Source: Haloarcula sp. DT43
GTDB lineage: Archaea > Halobacteriota > Halobacteria > Halobacteriales > Haloarculaceae
Direction: 5' to 3'
Assembly: GCF_037078405.1 (NCBI RefSeq)
Contig: NZ_JAYMGZ010000003.1
Coordinates: 372,001 to 436,000 of the forward strand
Length of the DNA stretch: 64,000 nt
How positions within the stretch are numbered: the first letter of the stretch is position 1; every line of letters starts with the position of its first letter. The position numbers were made by a program, and so were the translations under genes. Below are positions 47,595 to 62,400 of the stretch, piece by piece. The notes under the pieces were generated by a model, which was not told the origin of the DNA, did no database searches, and worked only from the letters and a program-made list of their open reading frames with translations.

Positions 47595-48929
47595 ATGATT
47601 CGCAACCGAGCCGAACTCGCTGCCGACTCCGGACACGAGGTCGCACTCGATTGCATCGAGGCCGCCGTGGACGCGGCCGCGCCCGATGTCGCCACCAGGT
47701 CGGCCGTCAGCCGCGACGGCCAGACGCTGACCGTCGGCGAGTCGACCTACGACCTCGACGAGTACGGCGATATCGTCGTCGTCGGCGGGGGGAAAGCCGC
47801 GGGCGGCGTGACACGGGTGCTCGAATCGGTGCTCGGCGACAGCCTCGGCGGCGGCCACATCGTCGCCAAGCAGGCCGTCGACACCGAAACCGTCCGGTGT
47901 ACCGTGGGGGACCACCCGTTACCGTCGGACCGCAACGTCGAAGCGACGGTGGATATCCTCGATGCGGTCGACGCTGCCGACGCGGATACGCTCGTCCTGT
48001 TCGTCCTGACCGGCGGAGCCAGCGCGCTCCTGTCGGCCCCCGCCGGGGACCTGACGCTGGCGGACCTCCAGACGACGACCGACAGGCTCCTCGACGGGGG
48101 CGTCCCGATTGGGGAGGTCAACGCCGTCCGCAAACACCTTTCGGACCTGAAAGGCGGACACATAGCACGGCGTGCCGCTCCCGCCACCGTCGCCGGACTG
48201 CTGATAAGCGACGTGGTCGGCAACGACCTGTCGACCATCGGGAGCGGCCCCTCAGTTCCGGACGAGACCACCTACGCGGACGCACTCGGCGTGTTCGAGC
48301 GGTACGACCTCTCCCCGCCGCCGGCCGTCCGCGACCATCTCGAAGCCGGGCGCGACGGCCGAATCCCGGAGACGCCGTTTCCAGACGACCCGACCTTCGA
48401 CCGAGTCGCGAACCACCTCATCGGGGACAACGCGACCGCGCTCGATGCCGCCGCCGCCGTCGCACAGGAGGCCGGATACGACCCGCTCGTGCTCACATCT
48501 CGCCTGCGCGGCGAGGCCCGCGAAGTGGCGCACCCGCTCGTCGCTATCGCCGAGGAAGCCGCGGCAACGGGCACGCCGGTCGAGCCCCCGGCCGTTTTCC
48601 TCGCCGGCGGCGAGACGACCGTGACTGTCACCGGCGACGGGGGGCGTGGTGGCCCCAATCAGGAGCTCGTCCTTTCCGGTGCACTGGCTCACGACGGCGA
48701 CGCGGTCATCGCTGCCGTCGACACCGACGGGGAAGACGGGAGCTCCGACGTGGCCGGTGCCATCGCCGACGCGACCGACGTCGAGGACCGCGAACGGGCC
48801 CGTGAGGCGTTGCTCGCGAACGACGCCGGTACGTACCTCTCGGAAATCGGTGCGACGGTCGAGACCGGCCCGACCGGGACCAACGTCAACGACGTTGTCG
48901 TACTCGTGGTCCCGGACACGAGCCGGTGA
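47595..48929 (+). CDS. gck: Glycerate 2-kinase (type-2, DUF4147/MOFRL)
   Basis: This 444-residue enzyme phosphorylates D-glycerate, most likely to 2-phosphoglycerate in archaea. The N-terminal DUF4147 domain shows IVVVGGGKAAGGVTRVLES, VLFVLTGGASALLSAP and NAVRKHLSDLKGGHIARRA. The C-terminal MOFRL domain shows FLAGGETTVTVTGDGGRGGPNQEL and AVDTDGEDGSSDVAGA. Glycerate kinases of this type feed glycerate from sugar-acid or serine breakdown into lower glycolysis. The LarA-like gene begins about 100 bases downstream on the same strand. Confidence 0.93.
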   Translation: MIRNRAELAADSGHEVALDCIEAAVDAAAPDVATRSAVSRDGQTLTVGESTYDLDEYGDIVVVGGGKAAGGVTRVLESVLGDSLGGGHIVAKQAVDTETVRCTVGDHPLPSDRNVEATVDILDAVDAADADTLVLFVLTGGASALLSAPAGDLTLADLQTTTDRLLDGGVPIGEVNAVRKHLSDLKGGHIARRAAPATVAGLLISDVVGNDLSTIGSGPSVPDETTYADALGVFERYDLSPPPAVRDHLEAGRDGRIPETPFPDDPTFDRVANHLIGDNATALDAAAAVAQEAGYDPLVLTSRLRGEAREVAHPLVAIAEEAAATGTPVEPPAVFLAGGETTVTVTGDGGRGGPNQELVLSGALAHDGDAVIAAVDTDGEDGSSDVAGAIADATDVEDRERAREALLANDAGTYLSEIGATVETGPTGTNVNDVVVLVVPDTSR

Positions 48930-49036
48930 GTGCCGCTGTCCGCGAGGGCCGTTTTCGGCCTGTGCCGTCCGGACTGCCACGACGGCACAGCGTCCCCTGG
49001 GTCACGTTTATGAACAGCGGGGCTGATATGGCGCGT

Positions 49037-50386
49037 ATGGACCCAAGCGAGCAGCAGGTCGCGGCCGGCGCACTCTCGGTCCCGGAGGAGACAATCGTCG
49101 AGGCCTGTGGCGACCCACCGCTCCCCGAACTCGGCGTCATCGAACAGGTCTGGGAGACGGACCCAATAGCACCGGACGCCGTCGGAGCACGCGCGGCCCG
49201 TGCGGTCGAGTCGCTGTCTTTCGCTGACGTGCCCGACGGCGGCGAGGTCGCGCTCGGCGTCGGGAGCCGCGGTATCGCAAATCTCCCCGCCATCGTCGCT
49301 GGCGTCGTCGACGCGGTCTCGGACGCCGGCTACGAGCCGTTCGTCTTCCCGGCGATGGGGAGCCACGGCGGCGCGACCGGCGAGGGCCAGCGCGAGATGC
49401 TGAACGAACTCGGCGTGACCGAGGCGGCCATCGGCTGTGACATCCGGTCGTCCATGGACGTCGTCGAAGTCGGGCGAACCCCGGACCGGGACGTGCCCGT
49501 CGTCGCCGACGACAACGCCGTGGCGGCCGACGCCATCGTGCCAATCAACCGCATCAAGCCACACACGGACTTCGACGGCCCCGTCGAGAGCGGGCTCTCG
49601 AAGATGCTCGTCATCGGTATGGGCAAGCAACGCGGTGCACAGATAGCCCACAAGTGGGCCGTCGACTGGTCGTTTCGCCGAATGATTCCCGAGATTACCG
49701 GCCAGTTGCTCGACGAGTTACCCATCGTCGGCGGCGTCGCAATCGTCGAGGACCAGCACGACGAGACGACGCTGCTAGAGGGCGTGCCGCCGAGCGGCTT
49801 CCTCGACCGCGAGGCGGAACTGTTAGAGACCGCCTACGAACTGATGCCCACGCTCCCGTTCGAGGACCTCGACCTCGTGGTGTTCGACCGCCAGGGGAAG
49901 GAAATCAGCGGACAGGGGATGGACACGAACGTCATCGGCCGCCGACCGTTCTCGATAAACGAGCCGGCCCCGGAGACGCCCGACATCAAACGCATCTTCA
50001 CGCGCGGGCTGACGGAGAAGACCCACGGGAACGCGATGGGCGTCGGGTCGGCGGACGTCATCCACGAGGACATCGTCGCGGAACTCGACGCCCGGACCTC
50101 GCTCATCAACGCACTCACGGCGAGCACGATTCGCGGCGTGAAACTGCCGCCGGTGGTCGAGACCGACCGCGCCGGCATCGTCGCCGCGCTGTCGACGATT
50201 GGCGTCGTCGACACCGATACCGTCCGCGTGCTCCGTGCGGCCGATACGATGCACCTCCACCGGCTCTACGCGTCGCCCGCACTGGTCGAGGCCGCGCGCG
50301 ACCGCGAGGACCTGCGTGTCGTCGCGGAGCCGTCCCCTATCGAGTTCAATGACGGCCAACTCGTTGCCCCGTCGCCGCGCCAGTAG
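49037..50386 (+). CDS. LarA-like (DUF2088) protein, putative hydroxyacid racemase/epimerase
   Basis: About 449 residues from the ATG at 49037, with a TATA-like CGTTTATGA 25-31 bases upstream; ATGs at 49010 and 49028 are in frame. It has LarA-family features: VALGVGSRGIANLPAIVAG (N-terminal strand/loop), FPAMGSHGGATGEGQREML (GSHGG in place of the family GTHR-type loop), PINRIKPHTDFDGPVESGLS and a KMLVIGMGKQRGA segment. LarA-type proteins interconvert the stereoisomers of lactate or other 2-hydroxyacids with a nickel-pincer cofactor. The substrate and cofactor use are not visible here. It follows glycerate kinase and precedes the remnant of a hydroxyacid oxidase-like gene. Confidence 0.8.
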   Translation: MDPSEQQVAAGALSVPEETIVEACGDPPLPELGVIEQVWETDPIAPDAVGARAARAVESLSFADVPDGGEVALGVGSRGIANLPAIVAGVVDAVSDAGYEPFVFPAMGSHGGATGEGQREMLNELGVTEAAIGCDIRSSMDVVEVGRTPDRDVPVVADDNAVAADAIVPINRIKPHTDFDGPVESGLSKMLVIGMGKQRGAQIAHKWAVDWSFRRMIPEITGQLLDELPIVGGVAIVEDQHDETTLLEGVPPSGFLDREAELLETAYELMPTLPFEDLDLVVFDRQGKEISGQGMDTNVIGRRPFSINEPAPETPDIKRIFTRGLTEKTHGNAMGVGSADVIHEDIVAELDARTSLINALTASTIRGVKLPPVVETDRAGIVAALSTIGVVDTDTVRVLRAADTMHLHRLYASPALVEAARDREDLRVVAEPSPIEFNDGQLVAPSPRQ

Positions 50387-53827: not shown

Positions 53828-54520
53828 TCAGTCTATCAGTTCGACGTGATCGCCGCCGTGGACAGTTGTTTCTAAAAGGTTCGCCAGTTGAGCCAACTCT
53901 ATCTCCCCGTATTTCGCCTCGGTATCCAGTTGTATCGGTGCAAAACAGAGCTCGGAACCGTAGAACACGCCGATGACACGCGTATGCTGTCCTAATTCGC
54001 CCAGTGAGACTCCAGACACTCTGACACCACTCTGTGAGGCTGCGTTGAGACAATCCAGTAGGAGTAATGCATCCTCTCGCTCCTCCGCAAACACGGATAC
54101 TTTAGATACATCTCCGTACTCGTCACACTCCAAAATCAGCTCTTGGAGCTCCGATTTTTCCGGAGTCTGTTCGAAATCGTAGTACGCGACTATCACGTCG
54201 ACTTCGTTTTCTCGTAGTTCGTCGGCAAGCCACGCTTCGGTTCTAATAGTTTCGAGATCGATTTTCACCATCGCGACTGCATCTGAACTGGCAGCAGCGA
54301 GAAGTTCTTCCAAGCGATTGGATTCCGATGCAGCACCGCCCGCCCACTCGGGCCGATTCGAAACAATCAATGGCAGTTCCCCATCGTACTCGGTTAGTTG
54401 GTCGACCGGGGCCGTAGCCCCGTCCATTCGAAATTCCACGTAGTCCGCATGCTCCCTGGCCAAGGGCTCGTCACGCAAATCGTCGGTGGTGCCGACCATA
54501 TCGTACTCTATGTCGTCCAT
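53828..54520 (-). CDS. Type I 3-dehydroquinate dehydratase (AroD) paralogue lacking the catalytic His/Glu pair
   Basis: The protein has 230 residues from the ATG at 54520. The fold match is good: REHADYVEFRMDGA near residues 22-35 (family EFRxD), VSNRPEWAGG near 53-62, AYYDFEQTPE at 112-121, SKVSVF with the Schiff-base-type lysine at 140, and GQHTRVIG (the late arginine). However, Tyr114 stands where the catalytic His (Salmonella His143) should be. Ala60 stands where the Glu that orients it (Glu86) should be. The late S/Q motif is replaced by AKYGEI. Substrate arginines and the lysine remain. It is therefore unlikely to be a normal shikimate-pathway dehydratase and may be a lysine-dependent aldolase-like or non-enzymatic relative. 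Confidence 0.8.
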   Translation of the reverse strand: MDDIEYDMVGTTDDLRDEPLAREHADYVEFRMDGATAPVDQLTEYDGELPLIVSNRPEWAGGAASESNRLEELLAAASSDAVAMVKIDLETIRTEAWLADELRENEVDVIVAYYDFEQTPEKSELQELILECDEYGDVSKVSVFAEEREDALLLLDCLNAASQSGVRVSGVSLGELGQHTRVIGVFYGSELCFAPIQLDTEAKYGEIELAQLANLLETTVHGGDHVELID

Positions 54521-54748
54521 GATACAATACAACAACCGTTCCTATAAAAAAGTTCTATACTGTTGGGTTCCGGCCCTCGGAATGGCTATCTCAGCTACTG
54601 CGGAGAGACTTGCTCGGCATACGTCTCTGCGAGTCATCCCCGACTACGAGTCACTTGCACTGGGTGGCGACCGGAGAAACCTGCGTATTAAGAAAGCCCG
54701 ATGATGTGCGGCAGAGATGGCTATAGGTGCGCGTACAGATTTTCTAGC

Positions 54749-55369
54749 ATGACCACCAGCGATGTCTGGCATATCTGGGATAATTCCGAATGTGAGGGGA
54801 CGCAAGACTGTCCGCCCAGGTGCCCGAGGTTCTTCGATAAACGGGGAGAACCGATGCTGGTCCGTGAATTTCGCTCCGGTGACTACGACCCGCTTCTGGA
54901 AATGTACACCAGTCTCGAGGCTGCTGACCAGACGATGGGGGTGCCGCCACAAAAGACGGCCGCGTTGAGACAGTGGTTGAACCACATTTTAACCGACGGC
55001 TGGAATCTAATCGCGGCGCATTCTGACCGAATCGTCGGGCACGCGGCCGTTACCCCGAAATCAGAAGACGAACCGGAGTTCGTCATTTTCGTCCATCGCG
55101 ACTACCGGGACAGGGGCATCGGGACTGAACTAGTCAAACAGGTACTCGCATACGCCGAAACGATGGAGCACCGGAACATCGTGTTGGACGTCGCCAGAAC
55201 AAACGAGCGGGCAATAAACGTGTACGAGAGTCTCGGATTCGACATCGTGAGCGAGACTAAAATGCATGCACAGATGCGGATGCCGCTTCGAAAACCGGAC
55301 GTCCGGGCTTTCCAGCGTCCGCCGGCAAATCGCAGAGACGCACAATCTCAGCTGTGTGACGACAATTAA
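54749..55369 (+). CDS. GNAT-family N-acetyltransferase
   Basis: The protein has 206 residues from the ATG at 54749; a start at 54701 is less likely. The N-terminal segment WHIWDNSECEGTQDCPPRCP is shared by a haloarchaeal GNAT subfamily and holds several cysteines. The acetyl-CoA fold follows: VREFRSGDYDPLLEMYTSLE, a strand with EFVIFVHRDYRDRGIGTELV (the acetyl-CoA RxxGxG/A loop), and INVYESLGFDIVSE at the end. The substrate is unknown. It is divergent from the AroD-like gene. Confidence 0.85.
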   Translation: MTTSDVWHIWDNSECEGTQDCPPRCPRFFDKRGEPMLVREFRSGDYDPLLEMYTSLEAADQTMGVPPQKTAALRQWLNHILTDGWNLIAAHSDRIVGHAAVTPKSEDEPEFVIFVHRDYRDRGIGTELVKQVLAYAETMEHRNIVLDVARTNERAINVYESLGFDIVSETKMHAQMRMPLRKPDVRAFQRPPANRRDAQSQLCDDN

Positions 55370-55691: not shown

Positions 55692-56600
55692 ATGACCAAG
55701 CAAAGCGTCCTCGTTACGGGTCCGTTCGGCGAAGCCGGGGAAGCGATACTGAACCACCTTGCCGAGAAGGACGACTACGAGTTCACGTATCTCAACCGGA
55801 CCGACCACCCCGAGTACGAGACACACGTAGCGGACGTTGCTGATTACGATGCGATTCGACCGGCGTTCGACGGGCAGGACGCTGTCATCCACCTCGCCGC
55901 ACAGTCCGACGCGGGCGCGGACTTCGAGGAGATAATCGAGCCCAACATCGTCGGCACGTACAACGTCCTCAAAGCGATGGCCGACGCCGGTGTTGAGAAG
56001 CTCATCTACGCGTCCTCACAGCGCGTGATGGGGCTGTACGAGGAGGACCACGCGCCGGAACTGTACGAGGAGGACTATCCCAGCGAGTTCGACCCCTTCC
56101 GGCTCACTCACGAGACTTTGCCGAAGCCAGACGGGTACTACGGGGCCTCGAAGATGTTCGGAGAACACATGTGTCGGGCACACGCCCGGCGCGACGGTGC
56201 TCCGGAACAGGTGTACTCGCTCCGCATCTCCAGCGTTCGCACCGCGGAGTACGACCACCCGTACGGCGACGCCGAACGCGGTGTCGACCGGGGTGAAGAG
56301 CACGAGGTCGACGAGGACGAGGTCTGGGACCAGTCACAGACCGGTTCCTGGGAACGCGGCAGCGAGGAGTACGAGAAGATGGTAAAGCGGCTGAAAGCCT
56401 CCTGGACCTCGCAGCGGGACTTCGCGCACCTCCTCGAATGCTGTCTCGAAGACGACAGCGTCACCTACGATGCGTTCTACGCGGTCAGCGGGAACGCTGC
56501 ACGGTGGTTCGACATCGAGCACGCACAGGCTGTCCTGGGCTACGAACCGAAAGACGACGCTTCACGATGGGACGGCCCGCCCAGTGACGCGACGGAGTGA
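55692..56600 (+). CDS. NAD-dependent epimerase/dehydratase, uronate-dehydrogenase-like
   Basis: This 302-residue extended short-chain dehydrogenase has NAD site VTGPFGEAGEAILNHLAE, AVIHLAAQSDAG, catalytic Ser in YASSQRVMGLYEE and the Tyr/Lys pair in DGYYGASKMFGEHMCRA. The combination SSQRVMG, then YGxSK, resembles hexuronate dehydrogenases that oxidise C1 of uronates to aldarolactone with NAD+. Other sugar-nucleotide epimerases are possible. It is followed by an IclR gene, an RraA-like gene, a zinc alcohol dehydrogenase and a TRAP transporter, fitting a sugar-acid route. Confidence 0.85.
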   Translation: MTKQSVLVTGPFGEAGEAILNHLAEKDDYEFTYLNRTDHPEYETHVADVADYDAIRPAFDGQDAVIHLAAQSDAGADFEEIIEPNIVGTYNVLKAMADAGVEKLIYASSQRVMGLYEEDHAPELYEEDYPSEFDPFRLTHETLPKPDGYYGASKMFGEHMCRAHARRDGAPEQVYSLRISSVRTAEYDHPYGDAERGVDRGEEHEVDEDEVWDQSQTGSWERGSEEYEKMVKRLKASWTSQRDFAHLLECCLEDDSVTYDAFYAVSGNAARWFDIEHAQAVLGYEPKDDASRWDGPPSDATE

Positions 56601-56661: not shown

Positions 56662-57438
56662 TCACTCGTACTGATGTATTTTCAACTCGATGATGTTCTT
56701 CTTGTTCATCAGCTTCGGCACGAGTTCGTCTTCTATCCGTTCGTTGTCCAACCGACTGCGTGGGCCGCTTATGCTGATGCCGCCGATAGCGTCGTCCGGC
56801 TCTGAAACGATGACCGTGGCAATCGCACAGACCCCGGGGAAGTGTTCGCCGCGATTTATCGAGTACCCACGCTCCCGAATCGTGTCGAGTTCCTCGTACA
56901 ACGCCCCCTCGTCAGTTATCGTATCGTCAGTCTGCGGTGGGAGTCCGCGCTGCTCTATGATTTGATTCACCCGCTCTTCGGGTAGCTCCGCGAGTATGGC
57001 CTTCCCCGTCGCCGTCGAATGCAGGAACAAGTGTTCGCCGAGCGGTGCCTCGTCGTCTATCGACTCGGGGCTCTCAGATTTGTAGAGCTGCACAGCGTAC
57101 CCGTTCTGCTCGACAGTCACGTTCGTGTGCTCGCCAGTCATCTCGCGCAGTTCGTCCAGTTCGGGCCTGGCCGCCTGATAGAGTGCCATCCCGTCCTGCA
57201 TCTCTCCCCCTATCCGAAGGAACTGAAAACTGGTTTTGTAGATATCGCCCTCCCGGACGACGTAGCTCGATTCCACGAGCGTGCTGAGGTGGATGTGTGC
57301 GGTACTGGCCGGGAGGTCGAGCGCTTCGGCTACTTCCGAGAGTGTCGCGCCCCCGTTGTTGTGGAGGTAGCCGATAATCTGAAACGCCCGATTGACGCTC
57401 TTCAGCTGGCGTGTGTCGGAATCTTCGGTGTCTGTCAT
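56662..57438 (-). CDS. IclR-family transcriptional regulator
   Basis: This 258-residue regulator has an N-terminal winged helix (residues ~10-75, LKSVNRAFQIIGYLHNNGGA and LSEVAEALDLPASTAHIHLS) and a C-terminal IclR effector domain (HSTATGKAILAELPEERVNQ; GEHFPGVCAIATVIV; IGGISISGPRSRL). It probably senses a sugar acid or related carboxylate and controls the surrounding catabolic genes. A TGAAATTTTTCA palindrome lies about 35-46 bases upstream of its start. It is convergent with the uronate-dehydrogenase-like gene. Confidence 0.93.
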   Translation of the reverse strand: MTDTEDSDTRQLKSVNRAFQIIGYLHNNGGATLSEVAEALDLPASTAHIHLSTLVESSYVVREGDIYKTSFQFLRIGGEMQDGMALYQAARPELDELREMTGEHTNVTVEQNGYAVQLYKSESPESIDDEAPLGEHLFLHSTATGKAILAELPEERVNQIIEQRGLPPQTDDTITDEGALYEELDTIRERGYSINRGEHFPGVCAIATVIVSEPDDAIGGISISGPRSRLDNERIEDELVPKLMNKKNIIELKIHQYE

Positions 57439-57690: not shown

Positions 57691-58380
57691 CTACTGAATG
57701 GAGTCTTCGGGACCGACGACGTTCAGGTTCTCGAACAGTTCGTCGTAGCCGTTGAGTTCGAAGAGGTAGTCCCCGTCCAGCACTTCTTCGCGGACGGAAT
57801 CTTCGGCCGAGAGTTTCTGTCGGGACCGCTCCAGTACCTCCGCTGCCCCTTCGCTAGGGATGACGGCCAGGCCGTCGTCGTCGCCGATGACGATGTCCCC
57901 GGGGTCGACGCTGACGCCGCCACACGAGACCGTGACGTTGACCGACCCGGGGTCCTGCTTGAGAGGGCCCTGTGGATTCGTCCCGCGCCCGTACACCGGA
58001 AACTCCATCTCGGCGATTTCACGGCTGTCCCGGTACCCGCCGTCGATGATGAGGCCCGCGAGGTCGTTCGCCTGGCAGGAGGTACACATCAGCTCGCCGA
58101 TGTGACCCGTCTCGGTGTAGCCGTTGGCGTCGATTACGAGCACGTCTCCGGGCTCGGCCATCGTTATCGCCTTGTGGATTATCAGATTGTCACCGGGGGA
58201 CGCGTTCACGGTTATCGCGGTCCCCGCGAGTTCAATCCCGTCGTACGCGGCCTCGATGCCGGAGTCCATGGTCAGTCCGACGTTCCCCGTCACGTCAGAG
58301 ACGATGGTACTCGGTATCCCTTCGAACGCCTCGACGACCTCGCGGTCCGGTCGCTCTACCTCGTGCTCTATCGTGTGCAT
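57691..58380 (-). CDS. RraA-family protein (4-hydroxy-4-methyl-2-oxoglutarate aldolase-like)
   Basis: The 229-residue protein has the RraA/HMG aldolase fold: SDVTGNVGLTMDSGIEAAYD early, then PGDVLVIDANGYTETGHIGE, the divalent-metal and substrate segment LIIDGGYRDSREI (Arg and Asp of the DGGxRD signature), and GVSVDPGDIVIGDDDGLAVIP. Such proteins are aldolases cleaving 4-hydroxy-2-oxo-diacids or related oxaloacetate decarboxylases; the same fold also inhibits RNase E in bacteria. In a catabolic locus the aldolase or decarboxylase role is more plausible. The substrate is unknown. Confidence 0.87.
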   Translation of the reverse strand: MHTIEHEVERPDREVVEAFEGIPSTIVSDVTGNVGLTMDSGIEAAYDGIELAGTAITVNASPGDNLIIHKAITMAEPGDVLVIDANGYTETGHIGELMCTSCQANDLAGLIIDGGYRDSREIAEMEFPVYGRGTNPQGPLKQDPGSVNVTVSCGGVSVDPGDIVIGDDDGLAVIPSEGAAEVLERSRQKLSAEDSVREEVLDGDYLFELNGYDELFENLNVVGPEDSIQ

Positions 58381-58557: not shown

Positions 58558-58580
58558 CGTTGTACCGTGATATCGTTCGT

Positions 58581-59624
58581 ATGCGTGGATTGGCTAAAAC
58601 CAGCCGTGAGTACGGTCAAATGGAACTAGTGGACATCGAGACCCCAGAACCGTCGCCCACCGAGGTGTTAATCGAGATAAGCTACGCCGGACTGTGTGGC
58701 AGTGATGCGGGCATTTACGCGTTCAAATCAGCGTTCGAACGGATGGAACTGCCGACGGTAATCGGCCACGAGTACACCGGTGAAGTGGTCGAAACCGGTG
58801 CCGACGTGACAAAGTTCGAGGTCGGGGACCAGGTCGTCGAGCGACCTATCCGTGGCTGTGGTGACTGTTATCAGTGTGAAATCGGAAACGAGAACATCTG
58901 CCAGAACGCCGAACTCACGGGGATTGACCACCACGGGGCGTACGCGGGGTACATCGCCGTCCCCGTGAGCGCCCTGCAGAAAGTTCCGGAGGGGGTCGAG
59001 CCGAGACACGCCGCGCTGGTCGAACCGACGGCTATCTGTACTCGCGCCGTCATCGAGAACTCGCGGGTCAGCCCCGGCGACACCGTTCTGGTCGCTGGAC
59101 CCGGACCGATGGGGCTCCTCTCCGCACAGGTCGCGGAAGCACAGGGCGGTGACGTCGTCGTCGCCGGCGTCGAACAGGACACGACGTATCGGCTTCCGCT
59201 TGCGGAGAAACTGGGGTACCCGACCATCAACATCGAGGACGACGACGTGTCGGCGTATCGTACCGAATTCACGGACGGAATCGGCTACGACGTCGTGTTC
59301 GACACGACGGGTCACCCGTCGGGGCTGACGATGGCCGCCGAGCAGGCTCGAAAGGGCGGACAGGTCGTCCTCGTCGGGCAGACCGGGGAAGCCACGATGG
59401 ATTACACCCCAATTGTCCGGGCCGAAATCGACCTGCAGACTTCGTACGGCGCGATGTATCGGGACTTCGACCGTGCGCTCAGACTGATTCGCTCGGGCGA
59501 CGTCGACCACGAGACGTTCTCGGACGGCCGGTTCAGTCTGCTCGACGCCGACGAGGCGTTCGAGGCGTTTCTGGCCGGTGAAACGTGCAAGCCGGTTTTC
59601 GACGTCTCCGTACTCCGCGACTAG
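58581..59624 (+). CDS. Zinc-dependent medium-chain alcohol (polyol) dehydrogenase
   Basis: The 347-residue protein has the catalytic zinc site in YAGLCGSDAGIYAF (Cys) and VIGHEYTGEVVE (His, Glu). The structural zinc loop is RPIRGCGDCYQCEIGNENIC (four cysteines). The NAD site is VLVAGPGPMGLLSAQVAEAQ. It resembles sorbitol, galactitol or threonine dehydrogenases and would oxidise a sugar alcohol or a hydroxyl of a sugar acid with NAD(P)+. It is divergent from the RraA-like gene, suggesting shared control by the IclR protein. Confidence 0.92.
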   Translation: MRGLAKTSREYGQMELVDIETPEPSPTEVLIEISYAGLCGSDAGIYAFKSAFERMELPTVIGHEYTGEVVETGADVTKFEVGDQVVERPIRGCGDCYQCEIGNENICQNAELTGIDHHGAYAGYIAVPVSALQKVPEGVEPRHAALVEPTAICTRAVIENSRVSPGDTVLVAGPGPMGLLSAQVAEAQGGDVVVAGVEQDTTYRLPLAEKLGYPTINIEDDDVSAYRTEFTDGIGYDVVFDTTGHPSGLTMAAEQARKGGQVVLVGQTGEATMDYTPIVRAEIDLQTSYGAMYRDFDRALRLIRSGDVDHETFSDGRFSLLDADEAFEAFLAGETCKPVFDVSVLRD

Positions 59625-59715: not shown

Positions 59716-60387
59716 CTACTCGGCACGCGGGTCCCATTCGTTCCACTCGCGCTCGACGAGGAAGTCGTCGAGTTTCCCCTTCGGGTCCTCGAAGACGTGC
59801 GAGCCGTGGAACACGAGCAGGGTGTCGAAGTCGTATTCGAGCAGCGAATAGAGGTTGAGCTCGGCGGCTCTGTGGTCGTCGTTGAACAGCGCCGGCGGGG
59901 GGAGCAGATACCCGGCCGGGAGTCCACCCCGGTCGGAGCCGTCGAGCGTGTCTCCGGAAATCAGGATGCCACGGTCTTCGAGCAACAGCGCGGACGTCGC
60001 TTCCGTGTGGCCCGGCACCTGAATCACGCGGATGTTCCCGTCGAGCACGTCGCCGTCCTCGTATCTCACGTCGGGTTCGAACTCCAGCCCCTCCTCTTCG
60101 AGATGGGTGTACAGTTTCGTCTCGTCCGCCGGCATCGCAAGCTCGGGCGAGAAGGCCTCCATGACGTGGCTCAACCCACCGTGGTGGCCGTGGTCGCCGT
60201 GCGTGATGATTACGCGGTCGACCGACCCGTACTCTGATTTGAGTGTCTCGACGAGTTCCTCGCCGTTCTCGTCGAACGCAGTGTCGACGAGGGTCGTCTT
60301 CCCGCTGGGCACGTCTTTCAGTACTAGCACGCGCACGTGGTCGAACTGGATTTGGTCGATACCGTCGACTACGTTACTTACGCTCAT
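59716..60387 (-). CDS. Metallo-beta-lactamase-fold hydrolase with altered metal motif
   Basis: This 223-residue MBL-fold protein reads ITHGDHGHHGGLSHVM where the family usually has THxHxDHxGG. The second His is Asp, and the Asp that normally binds the second metal is Gly. Later metal ligands are present in IQVPGHTEATSALLLE and ILISGDTLDGSD, with a further His in LLVFHGSHVFED. It may keep one metal site with a different ligand set. Lactonase activity on aldonolactones would fit the neighbouring dehydrogenases but is only inference. Confidence 0.83.
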   Translation of the reverse strand: MSVSNVVDGIDQIQFDHVRVLVLKDVPSGKTTLVDTAFDENGEELVETLKSEYGSVDRVIITHGDHGHHGGLSHVMEAFSPELAMPADETKLYTHLEEEGLEFEPDVRYEDGDVLDGNIRVIQVPGHTEATSALLLEDRGILISGDTLDGSDRGGLPAGYLLPPPALFNDDHRAAELNLYSLLEYDFDTLLVFHGSHVFEDPKGKLDDFLVEREWNEWDPRAE

Positions 60388-60651: not shown

Positions 60652-61773
60652 ATGGCGCGTGACAAGCGGCCAGTATCACGAAGAACCGTCCTAAAATCAA
60701 GTGGCGCACTCCTGACAATCGGTGCTGCCGGGTTGGCCGGTTGTTCCGGCAACGGTGACGGGGGCAGCGACGGAGGGAGCAGCGACGGCGGCAGCGGTGG
60801 CGACGGTGGCAGCAGCGGCGACGGCGGTTCCACGACGTCCGACTCCGGCGGGGAGGAACTGGAGATTACGTTCGCTACGACACAGCCACCCGAGAACATC
60901 TCGGTCCAGACCGCACAGGAGTACTTCGCCGACGTGCTGGAAGAGGAGTCGGATGGTCGCATCACAGTCAATCTCGAAGCCTCGACACTGGGCGGCACAG
61001 AGGACAACCTCGCCGCGCTCGAATCGGGGACTGTCGACGTTCTGCACGAGAGCCCGACGGCGCTCTCACAGCGGTTCGCCTCCGAGTACTCCTTCGCCGG
61101 CGACCCGTTCGTCATCGAGGACATGGAACACTATCGGGCGGTCAACGAGGAGTTCCTGAAACCCGACGACGGGCTGAACGGCATCCTGAAGGAAAACGGC
61201 ATCAGGCTCGGCGACGCGTTCTACGTCGGCAACCGGTGTTTCACCAGTAACTCCCCGGTTACGTCCCCCGAAGACGTCCAGGGCCTCAAACTCCGTCTCC
61301 CACAGTACGAGACGTGGACCGCCGTCTGGAACGAAATCGGCGCGGACGTCACGCCTGTCGCCTACGACGAACTGTATTCGGCACTCCAGACCGGCGTCGT
61401 CGACGCCTCCGAGGGGCCGATTTCCCAGTTCCTGTCCGTGAGCCTCAACGAGGTCCAGTCGCATTTCAGCGTCACGAACCACCTCCTCGACACGAAGCAC
61501 TTCCTCTACAACGAGGAGTTCATGCAGGGCCTGAGCGACGAGGACCGCGAACTCATCACGTCGACGGCGAGCGACGCCGTCGAGTCGATGACGAGCGACA
61601 TCAAAGCACAGGAAGAGGAACTTTACCAGGAAGCCCAGGACAGGGGCACTACCGTCGTGCCCGCGGAAGACGTCGACCGAAGCGCCTTCGTCGAGGCCGG
61701 GCAGCCGGCACTCGAAGAGCTGTCCGAGAGCAACTGGGCCGTCAACATCAACGACGTCCAGGACCTCGCCTAA
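60652..61773 (+). CDS. dctP: TRAP transporter solute-binding lipoprotein (DctP family)
   Basis: This 373-residue protein begins with a twin-arginine signal (VSRRTVLKSSGALLTIGAAG) and lipobox LAGC. A low-complexity Gly/Ser/Asp linker (residues ~35-65) follows, then the DctP fold (ITFATTQPPENISVQTAQEY; GIRLGDAFYVGNRCF; SSPEDVQ-like region; LPQYETWTAVWNEIGAD). The family arginine that binds carboxylates is expected near GLKLRLPQYE. It captures an organic acid outside the cell for DctQM. It is first in the operon, and a T-rich run at 61798-61803 may mark attenuation before dctQ. Confidence 0.93.
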   Translation: MARDKRPVSRRTVLKSSGALLTIGAAGLAGCSGNGDGGSDGGSSDGGSGGDGGSSGDGGSTTSDSGGEELEITFATTQPPENISVQTAQEYFADVLEEESDGRITVNLEASTLGGTEDNLAALESGTVDVLHESPTALSQRFASEYSFAGDPFVIEDMEHYRAVNEEFLKPDDGLNGILKENGIRLGDAFYVGNRCFTSNSPVTSPEDVQGLKLRLPQYETWTAVWNEIGADVTPVAYDELYSALQTGVVDASEGPISQFLSVSLNEVQSHFSVTNHLLDTKHFLYNEEFMQGLSDEDRELITSTASDAVESMTSDIKAQEEELYQEAQDRGTTVVPAEDVDRSAFVEAGQPALEELSESNWAVNINDVQDLA

Positions 61774-61920
61774 ACCGTACCGACCCGTCTGCCGTTCTTT
61801 TTTGACGCGGTGTCCTCGTCCACTCAGCGGGCGGCCACCGCAGCGAGAGCGCCTGCCTTCGACCGAAATCTCTTCACAATAACTCACAAGGTTTTTTAAT
61901 TGACGCAGAGAATATCTACT

Positions 61921-62400
61921 ATGACCGGAGGATGGTTTGACAGAATTACCGTCGCAATTGGGGTACTCATGTTAAACGTCATGTTAGTCGTCGGACTGCT
62001 CCAGGTTCTCAGTCGCTACTTTTCGTTTCCGGTACCACTGTATTGGACGTACGAGATAGCCAGAACGTTTCTCGCGTTGATGACCATCATCGCCTTACCC
62101 TACATGTTCAAGAACGAATCGGACATCTCGTTTCTGCCGGTACTGAAACGTATCACCGAACGAACCGACGAGCTACTGCTCCTCCGTAACGTCTTCGTGG
62201 CGGTCCTGGCCGCCGTTCTCGTCGTCTCGGCGTACCTCGCGGCAGTGCTCGAAGGCGACGTCAGCCTGCCGATGATCGGGTGGTTCAAAATCGGATGGGG
62301 GTACACGCTCCTGGGTGTGAGTGCCGCGTTCCTCCTTGGCGTCATCATTCTGGATACGAAAGACCGGCTCAGCACCCTTCGGGGTGATGCCGATGTCTGA
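61921..62400 (+). CDS. dctQ: TRAP transporter small membrane subunit (DctQ)
   Basis: The protein has 159 residues from the ATG at 61921 and four transmembrane helices, with the family segment YWTYEIARTFLALMTIIALP near residue 40. A GTTTTTTAATTG stretch just upstream may be a promoter element of its own. It couples the binding protein to DctM. The stop overlaps the dctM start by eight bases. The alternative TTG start at 61900 is less likely. Confidence 0.92.
   Translation: MTGGWFDRITVAIGVLMLNVMLVVGLLQVLSRYFSFPVPLYWTYEIARTFLALMTIIALPYMFKNESDISFLPVLKRITERTDELLLLRNVFVAVLAAVLVVSAYLAAVLEGDVSLPMIGWFKIGWGYTLLGVSAAFLLGVIILDTKDRLSTLRGDADV

Follow-up and report, generated by a model that had tools for sequence, protein, structure and literature searches.

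Locus and active-site residues

The window analysed here is a stretch of 64,000 nucleotides from Haloarcula sp. DT43 (contig NZ_JAYMGZ010000003.1, positions 372,001 to 436,000 of the forward strand). It contains the gene under study, hereafter the focal gene, which encodes a divergent homolog of type I 3-dehydroquinate dehydratase (AroD) within a conserved gene cluster that continues past the window end (Table 1). According to open reading frames and BLAST labels, the transporter gene dctQ is followed by dctM and then, beyond the window, by genes labelled Usp, MBL, class 2 dehydroquinase, Hom and ACT. Elsewhere in the window and close to the focal gene (47595-50386), a glycerate 2-kinase gene adjoins a gene for a LarA-like nickel-pincer-cofactor isomerase (group 22, over the NCBIfam cut-off).

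Table 1. Features at the focal locus and in the adjoining gene cluster (window coordinates).
Feature	Position	Strand	Basis and remarks
Class 3 type I dehydroquinase homolog (focal gene)	53828..54520	-	Intact ORF, 230 aa; Pfam PF01487; alignments; structure model
Promoter box A-like element TTTTTTATA	54543..54551	-	Read from sequence; ends 22 nt before ATG
GNAT acetyltransferase	54701..55369	+	Pfam Acetyltransf_1; GNAT also near class 3 in G004 (Haloarcula salina) and JP-L23
NAD-dependent epimerase/dehydrogenase, cluster marker	55692..56600	+	Pfam Epimerase
IclR-family regulator	56662..57438	-	Pfam IclR_C; 141 bits to PcaR/PcaU/PobR model, under cut-off
RraA-like aldolase, named 4-carboxy-4-hydroxy-2-oxoadipate aldolase/oxaloacetate decarboxylase	57691..58380	-	NF006731, 183 bits, cut-off 179
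Zinc-dependent alcohol dehydrogenase	58560..59624	+	Pfam ADH_N, ADH_zinc_N; cluster-conserved
MBL-fold hydrolase	59716..60387	-	Pfam Lactamase_B; cluster-conserved
TRAP transporter solute-binding protein DctP	60652..61773	+	Pfam DctP; TctABC transporter here in other genomes
TRAP transporter small permease DctQ	61900..62400	+	ORF, BLAST label

By sequence, the focal protein belongs to the type I dehydroquinases, with 115.8 bits (E=4e-33) against Pfam DHquinase_I (PF01487; cut-off 22.2), and it is about 35-44% identical to canonical haloarchaeal AroD copies. Its AlphaFold2 model (pLDDT 91) predicts a (beta/alpha)8 barrel related to the solved type I enzymes, and the nearest solved structures are all type I dehydroquinases, with a TM-score of about 0.82 (1sfj, 3m7w). 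At the level of the enzyme, its score against the AroD equivalog model TIGR01093 is 85.1 bits, under the curated cut-off of 139.3. Alignment with Escherichia coli AroD, whose numbering is used throughout, showed that E46, R48, R82, K170 (Lys140 of the focal protein) and R213 are retained, and that E86 is replaced by Ala60, H143 by Tyr114, S232 by Ala and Q236 by Glu. The Schiff-base lysine is thus present, while His143, Glu86, Ser/Thr232 and Gln236 are all missing. Every substitution named in the preliminary description, namely Tyr for the catalytic His, Ala for the Glu of the RxxxEGG motif and the replacement of the late Ser and Gln, proved to be real, as did the retention of the lysine and several arginines (equivalents of R48, R82 and R213). 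Its view that this is no ordinary dehydroquinase is borne out as well, a working dehydroquinase being unlikely. Lys140 itself is not conserved across orthologs.

A second dehydroquinase in the same gene cluster

The only other homolog in the genome lies 12.4 kb from the focal gene, 2.9 kb beyond the end of the window (L003:4818-5561; G000:C3:438818-439561). It belongs to the same conserved cluster but is encoded on the opposite strand, and the two genes do not form one operon. This second protein represents a distinct kind of dehydroquinase, which we call class 2 and define by E86F and S232Y with His and Lys kept; both replacements are invariant in 36 sequences. Homologs of the focal kind are called class 3, and canonical AroD forms the third group. 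Class 2 is 46-47% identical to the focal protein. The host genome has chorismate synthase and 3-dehydroquinate (DHQ) synthase, and neither a canonical AroD nor a type II dehydroquinase was found in it; nearly all congeners carry a single canonical AroD. The focal gene had been described as lying far from shikimate genes. This holds for the window, which contains none, but it does not take account of the class 2 paralog 12.4 kb away or of a cluster that is linked to dehydroquinase and, in Natrinema, to shikimate kinase genes.

Across genomes, the class 2 cluster combines a Tct or TRAP transporter with an MBL-fold protein, a zinc alcohol dehydrogenase, an RraA-type aldolase, an IclR regulator and an epimerase-like protein, often together with homoserine dehydrogenase and an ACT protein. 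The dehydroquinase is part of this cluster: all 25 sampled genomes with the epimerase marker also carry a cluster-tied paralog of the type I dehydroquinase family, which is class 2 in 24 of them. The 25th (G349, in which the contig matches plasmid pNVE414 of Natrinema versiforme) has a canonical-type dehydroquinase in the class 2 slot. We therefore argue that class 2 carries out dehydroquinase chemistry. In the pNVE414 version of the cluster (L192:25892-28319), two archaeal shikimate kinase genes adjoin those for homoserine dehydrogenase and the ACT protein. One guess, based on the dehydroquinase, the IclR regulator and the shikimate kinases of Natrinema, is that the cluster takes up quinate or shikimate; a literature search on the use of quinate by haloarchaea and on pseudoenzymes of the dehydroquinase family in archaea returned nothing direct. 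We also considered that the homoserine dehydrogenase of the cluster might stand in for a replaced housekeeping gene, which is not general, since most genomes with the cluster copy keep another one.

Probable displacement of canonical AroD by class 2

Among the 392 Halobacteriales genomes of our sample, 37 encode class 2. A canonical copy is missing from 28 of these, broken in one (G164) and intact elsewhere in the genome in the remaining eight. No match to type II dehydroquinase over the cut-off was obtained in the 28 genomes without canonical AroD, which speaks against this enzyme as the missing activity. Class 2 is thus the only intact AroD candidate of these 28 genomes, among them the host genome. 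As to the rest of the pathway, chorismate synthase was found in all 26 genomes searched for it and DHQ synthase in 19 of 19. In Haloferax, eight genomes have class 2, seven have canonical AroD and none has both.

The position of the missing gene can be read from the trp/aro locus, where canonical aroD lies near the DHQ synthase gene in the canonical genomes examined. In the class 2 genomes of Haloferax and in H. salina (G004), the flanking trp/aro genes are still there and aroD is absent between them. In the host genome and in genus g44 the slot likewise lacks aroD, with further changes nearby, and in genome G259 the class 2 gene adjoins DHQ synthase and one of the trp/aro flanking genes. Displacement of this kind is seen in seven or more genera of haloarchaea, which belong to four families; as species are not independent, we do not rely on a p-value here. 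Since the 28 genomes yielded neither a canonical copy nor a type II enzyme over its cut-off, the pathway genes searched for are present and aroD is missing between its flanks at the loci examined, we read class 2 as the AroD replacement. Judged from gene content, class 2 appears to have displaced canonical AroD and to do its job in 28 or more genomes, the host genome included.

That class 2 might be merely catabolic and unrelated to AroD is disfavoured by the frequent lack of canonical aroD, by a remnant of it in G164 and by the canonical-type AroD in the same slot of Natrinema versiforme. The G164 remnant (L216, around G164:C1:292179-292538) is frame-broken and N-terminally truncated in a genome that has class 2, as if displacement were in progress. 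G385, which has another AroD match of full length, carries a broken piece of class 2 interrupted by a stop codon (L214, G385:C2:909963-910259); here the outcome may have been the opposite one. An apparent fragment of canonical aroD in G145 gave no tblastn match on re-reading and was not used.

Three clades with different pocket constraint

The tree places canonical AroD, class 2 and class 3 in a single clade each, with class 3 as the sister of class 2 (100/100 for the two together). Support for the class 3 clade is 95/72, with an SH-aLRT of only 72, and it includes some very long branches. The host genome, H. salina, Haloarcula sp. JP-L23 and seven Haloferax genomes were found to carry class 3, and Haladaptatus and relatives to carry a divergent form of it. 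Wherever class 3 turned up in the sampled genomes, class 2 was part of the same cluster. Conversely, class 3 is missing from about 25 of the 37 genomes with class 2 (for example G301, G272 and G259); G301 falls within a class 2 clade of Haloferax in which the other members have retained class 3. Genome G133 holds class 2, canonical AroD, one class 3 gene and a further class 3-like copy (L222, G133:C1:3219284-3219928) with Tyr in place of Lys.

The three clades differ markedly in their active sites. All 13 positions examined are invariant in 37 haloarchaeal canonical sequences and in 36 class 2 sequences, whereas in the 14 class 3 sequences only one of the 13, R213, is invariant. Three of these positions had also served to sort the classes, but the classes are clades of the tree and the remaining ten positions give the same contrast. 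The class 3 pocket is as variable as random alignment columns (P=0.54; P=0.15 in the better-preserved sub-clade). Most class 3 members have Lys170 together with Tyr at the His position, and most retain R82; the main exceptions to the Lys-Tyr pair are JP-L23 and the Haladaptatus-type copies. The JP-L23 protein, the closest ortholog of the focal protein (65% identical), has Arg at the Lys position and His at the Tyr position, and two Haladaptatus copies as well as the further G133 copy have Tyr at the Lys position. Positions 145, 203, 205 and 232 vary within class 3.

Despite this variable pocket, the gene is under purifying selection in relatives. In Haloferax, NG86 estimates of dN/dS range from 0.16 to 0.29 in class 3, against 0.06 to 0.15 in class 2, so that class 3 is constrained but less strongly; these values describe the Haloferax orthologs and not the focal gene, whose synonymous sites are saturated in the comparison with JP-L23. 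The class 3 copies that were read have intact frames in several genera. GC3 is lower in class 3 than in the cluster neighbours. Moreover, the sequence AGAACTTTTTTATA is common to the upstream regions of the focal gene and its JP-L23 ortholog, with 22 nt between the end of the element and the ATG in both. It looks like a kept promoter, for which the role of an archaeal TATA box may be assumed. The preliminary description had argued against simple decay, and the selection in relatives, the whole reading frame of the focal gene and the conserved element bear this out; evolution as a pseudogene, which it named as a refuting outcome, is not what the relatives show.

A possible function of class 3

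A scenario consistent with these observations starts from a single ancient duplication in a divergent dehydroquinase lineage of haloarchaea, which would have given rise to class 2 and class 3. The class 2 copy would have kept the Schiff-base Lys and the His, taken up Phe86 and Tyr232, travelled in a transport-and-oxidation cluster and displaced canonical aroD in many genomes. The class 3 copy would have kept the barrel, the carboxylate-binding R213 and mostly R82, with drifting catalytic residues that make dehydration unlikely. Its predicted inactivity as a dehydroquinase follows from the effect of H143Q, which abolishes the activity of E. coli AroD, and from the Candida albicans Aro1 domain, which lost activity in a similar way (PMC9074039). 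By analogy with known dead paralogs, class 3 may persist as a non-catalytic partner of class 2, for example as a subunit of a heteromer, or as a ligand sensor for it. We consider this role the likeliest because class 3 is under purifying selection, has its own promoter element, is found only with class 2 and keeps the fold and binding arginines. The focal protein is thus, on balance, probably a catalytically dead paralog (pseudoenzyme) of the class 2 protein that appears to have displaced AroD, and probably acts as a partner or sensor. Any partner role would not be universal, and class 2 does not need class 3 everywhere, since some 25 of the 37 genomes that encode class 2 do without class 3.

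Retention of the lysine without the His-Glu dyad had been taken as a sign of a new reaction, a suggestion that the pattern across the 14 class 3 members does not support. In such an enzyme, the Lys would form a Schiff base, Tyr114 would replace His as acid-base, and a metabolite of the cluster would undergo a retro-aldol reaction or dehydration. Lys and Tyr do occur together in the focal protein, H. salina, the Haloferax copies and one G133 copy, Ala86 and an acidic residue at 236 recur in this sub-clade, R213 is invariant, and the cluster, with its transporter, dehydrogenases and aldolase, looks catabolic. However, JP-L23 and the members with Tyr at the Lys position break the pair, positions 145, 203, 205 and 232 vary, and the many clusters without class 3 imply that no cluster step requires it, so that we regard a new enzyme as improbable. 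A version in which class 3 is a Lys-Tyr catalyst acting on a cluster metabolite, and JP-L23 and the Haladaptatus-type copies are later losses, is in our view quite improbable as well. That class 3 still works, alongside class 2, as an atypical 3-dehydroquinate dehydratase would fit its fold, the presence of Lys140 and the arginines that bind the substrate, yet His143 is needed in this chemistry, Glu, Ser and Gln are also gone and class 2 is present every time; we therefore give this explanation hardly any weight.

A relic on its way to loss, weakly constrained and with no current function, is unlikely, even though dN/dS in class 3 is about twice that in class 2, branches are long, GC3 is low relative to the cluster neighbours and the gene is absent from G301. 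Values of dN/dS well under 1 in Haloferax, intact frames across several genera, and a promoter element whose sequence and spacing are kept between orthologs of only 65% identity argue against it. The oddity of the focal protein is real, and it is best explained by a pseudoenzyme kept beside an alternative AroD and not by a new reaction.

Class 2 is apparently a natural dehydroquinase without Glu86, in which the role of this residue can be tested in a natural enzyme. Furthermore, class 3 and class 2 form a putative pair of dead and live paralogs in Haloferax. As this genus is open to genetic work in the laboratory, the purpose of a dead dehydroquinase can be addressed directly. Automatic annotation labels both as type I 3-dehydroquinate dehydratase, which should serve as a warning.

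Comparison with known systems

The characterised haloarchaeal AroD, OE1477R of Halobacterium salinarum, shares fold and family with the focal protein, which lacks the active-site His, Glu, Thr/Ser and Gln of this type (PMC4162585). Class 2 is closer, being the sister clade within the same cluster, but differs from the focal protein in keeping both His and Lys in a fully invariant 13-position pocket. The model proposed for class 3, a dead paralog kept with a working sister, is that of the prozymes of trypanosomatids, in which dead paralogs accompany AdoMet decarboxylase and deoxyhypusine synthase (PMC5201418, PMC3663545). Complex formation and activation are proven for the prozymes but hypothetical for class 3, and class 2 often occurs without class 3. 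As in a prozyme, lost catalytic residues coincide in class 3 with purifying selection (an unconstrained pocket, and dN/dS of about 0.2 in the Haloferax orthologs), and within the sampled genomes class 3 occurs only alongside the apparently active paralog. Another parallel is the inactive dehydroquinase domain of C. albicans Aro1, which has the type I fold with the catalytic His replaced, the Lys also lost in some related species and an alternative dehydroquinase encoded elsewhere in the genome (PMC9074039). In that case the dead copy is one of the five domains of a larger protein and is backed up by a type II enzyme, whereas class 3 has an archaeal gene to itself and is accompanied by a type I paralog.
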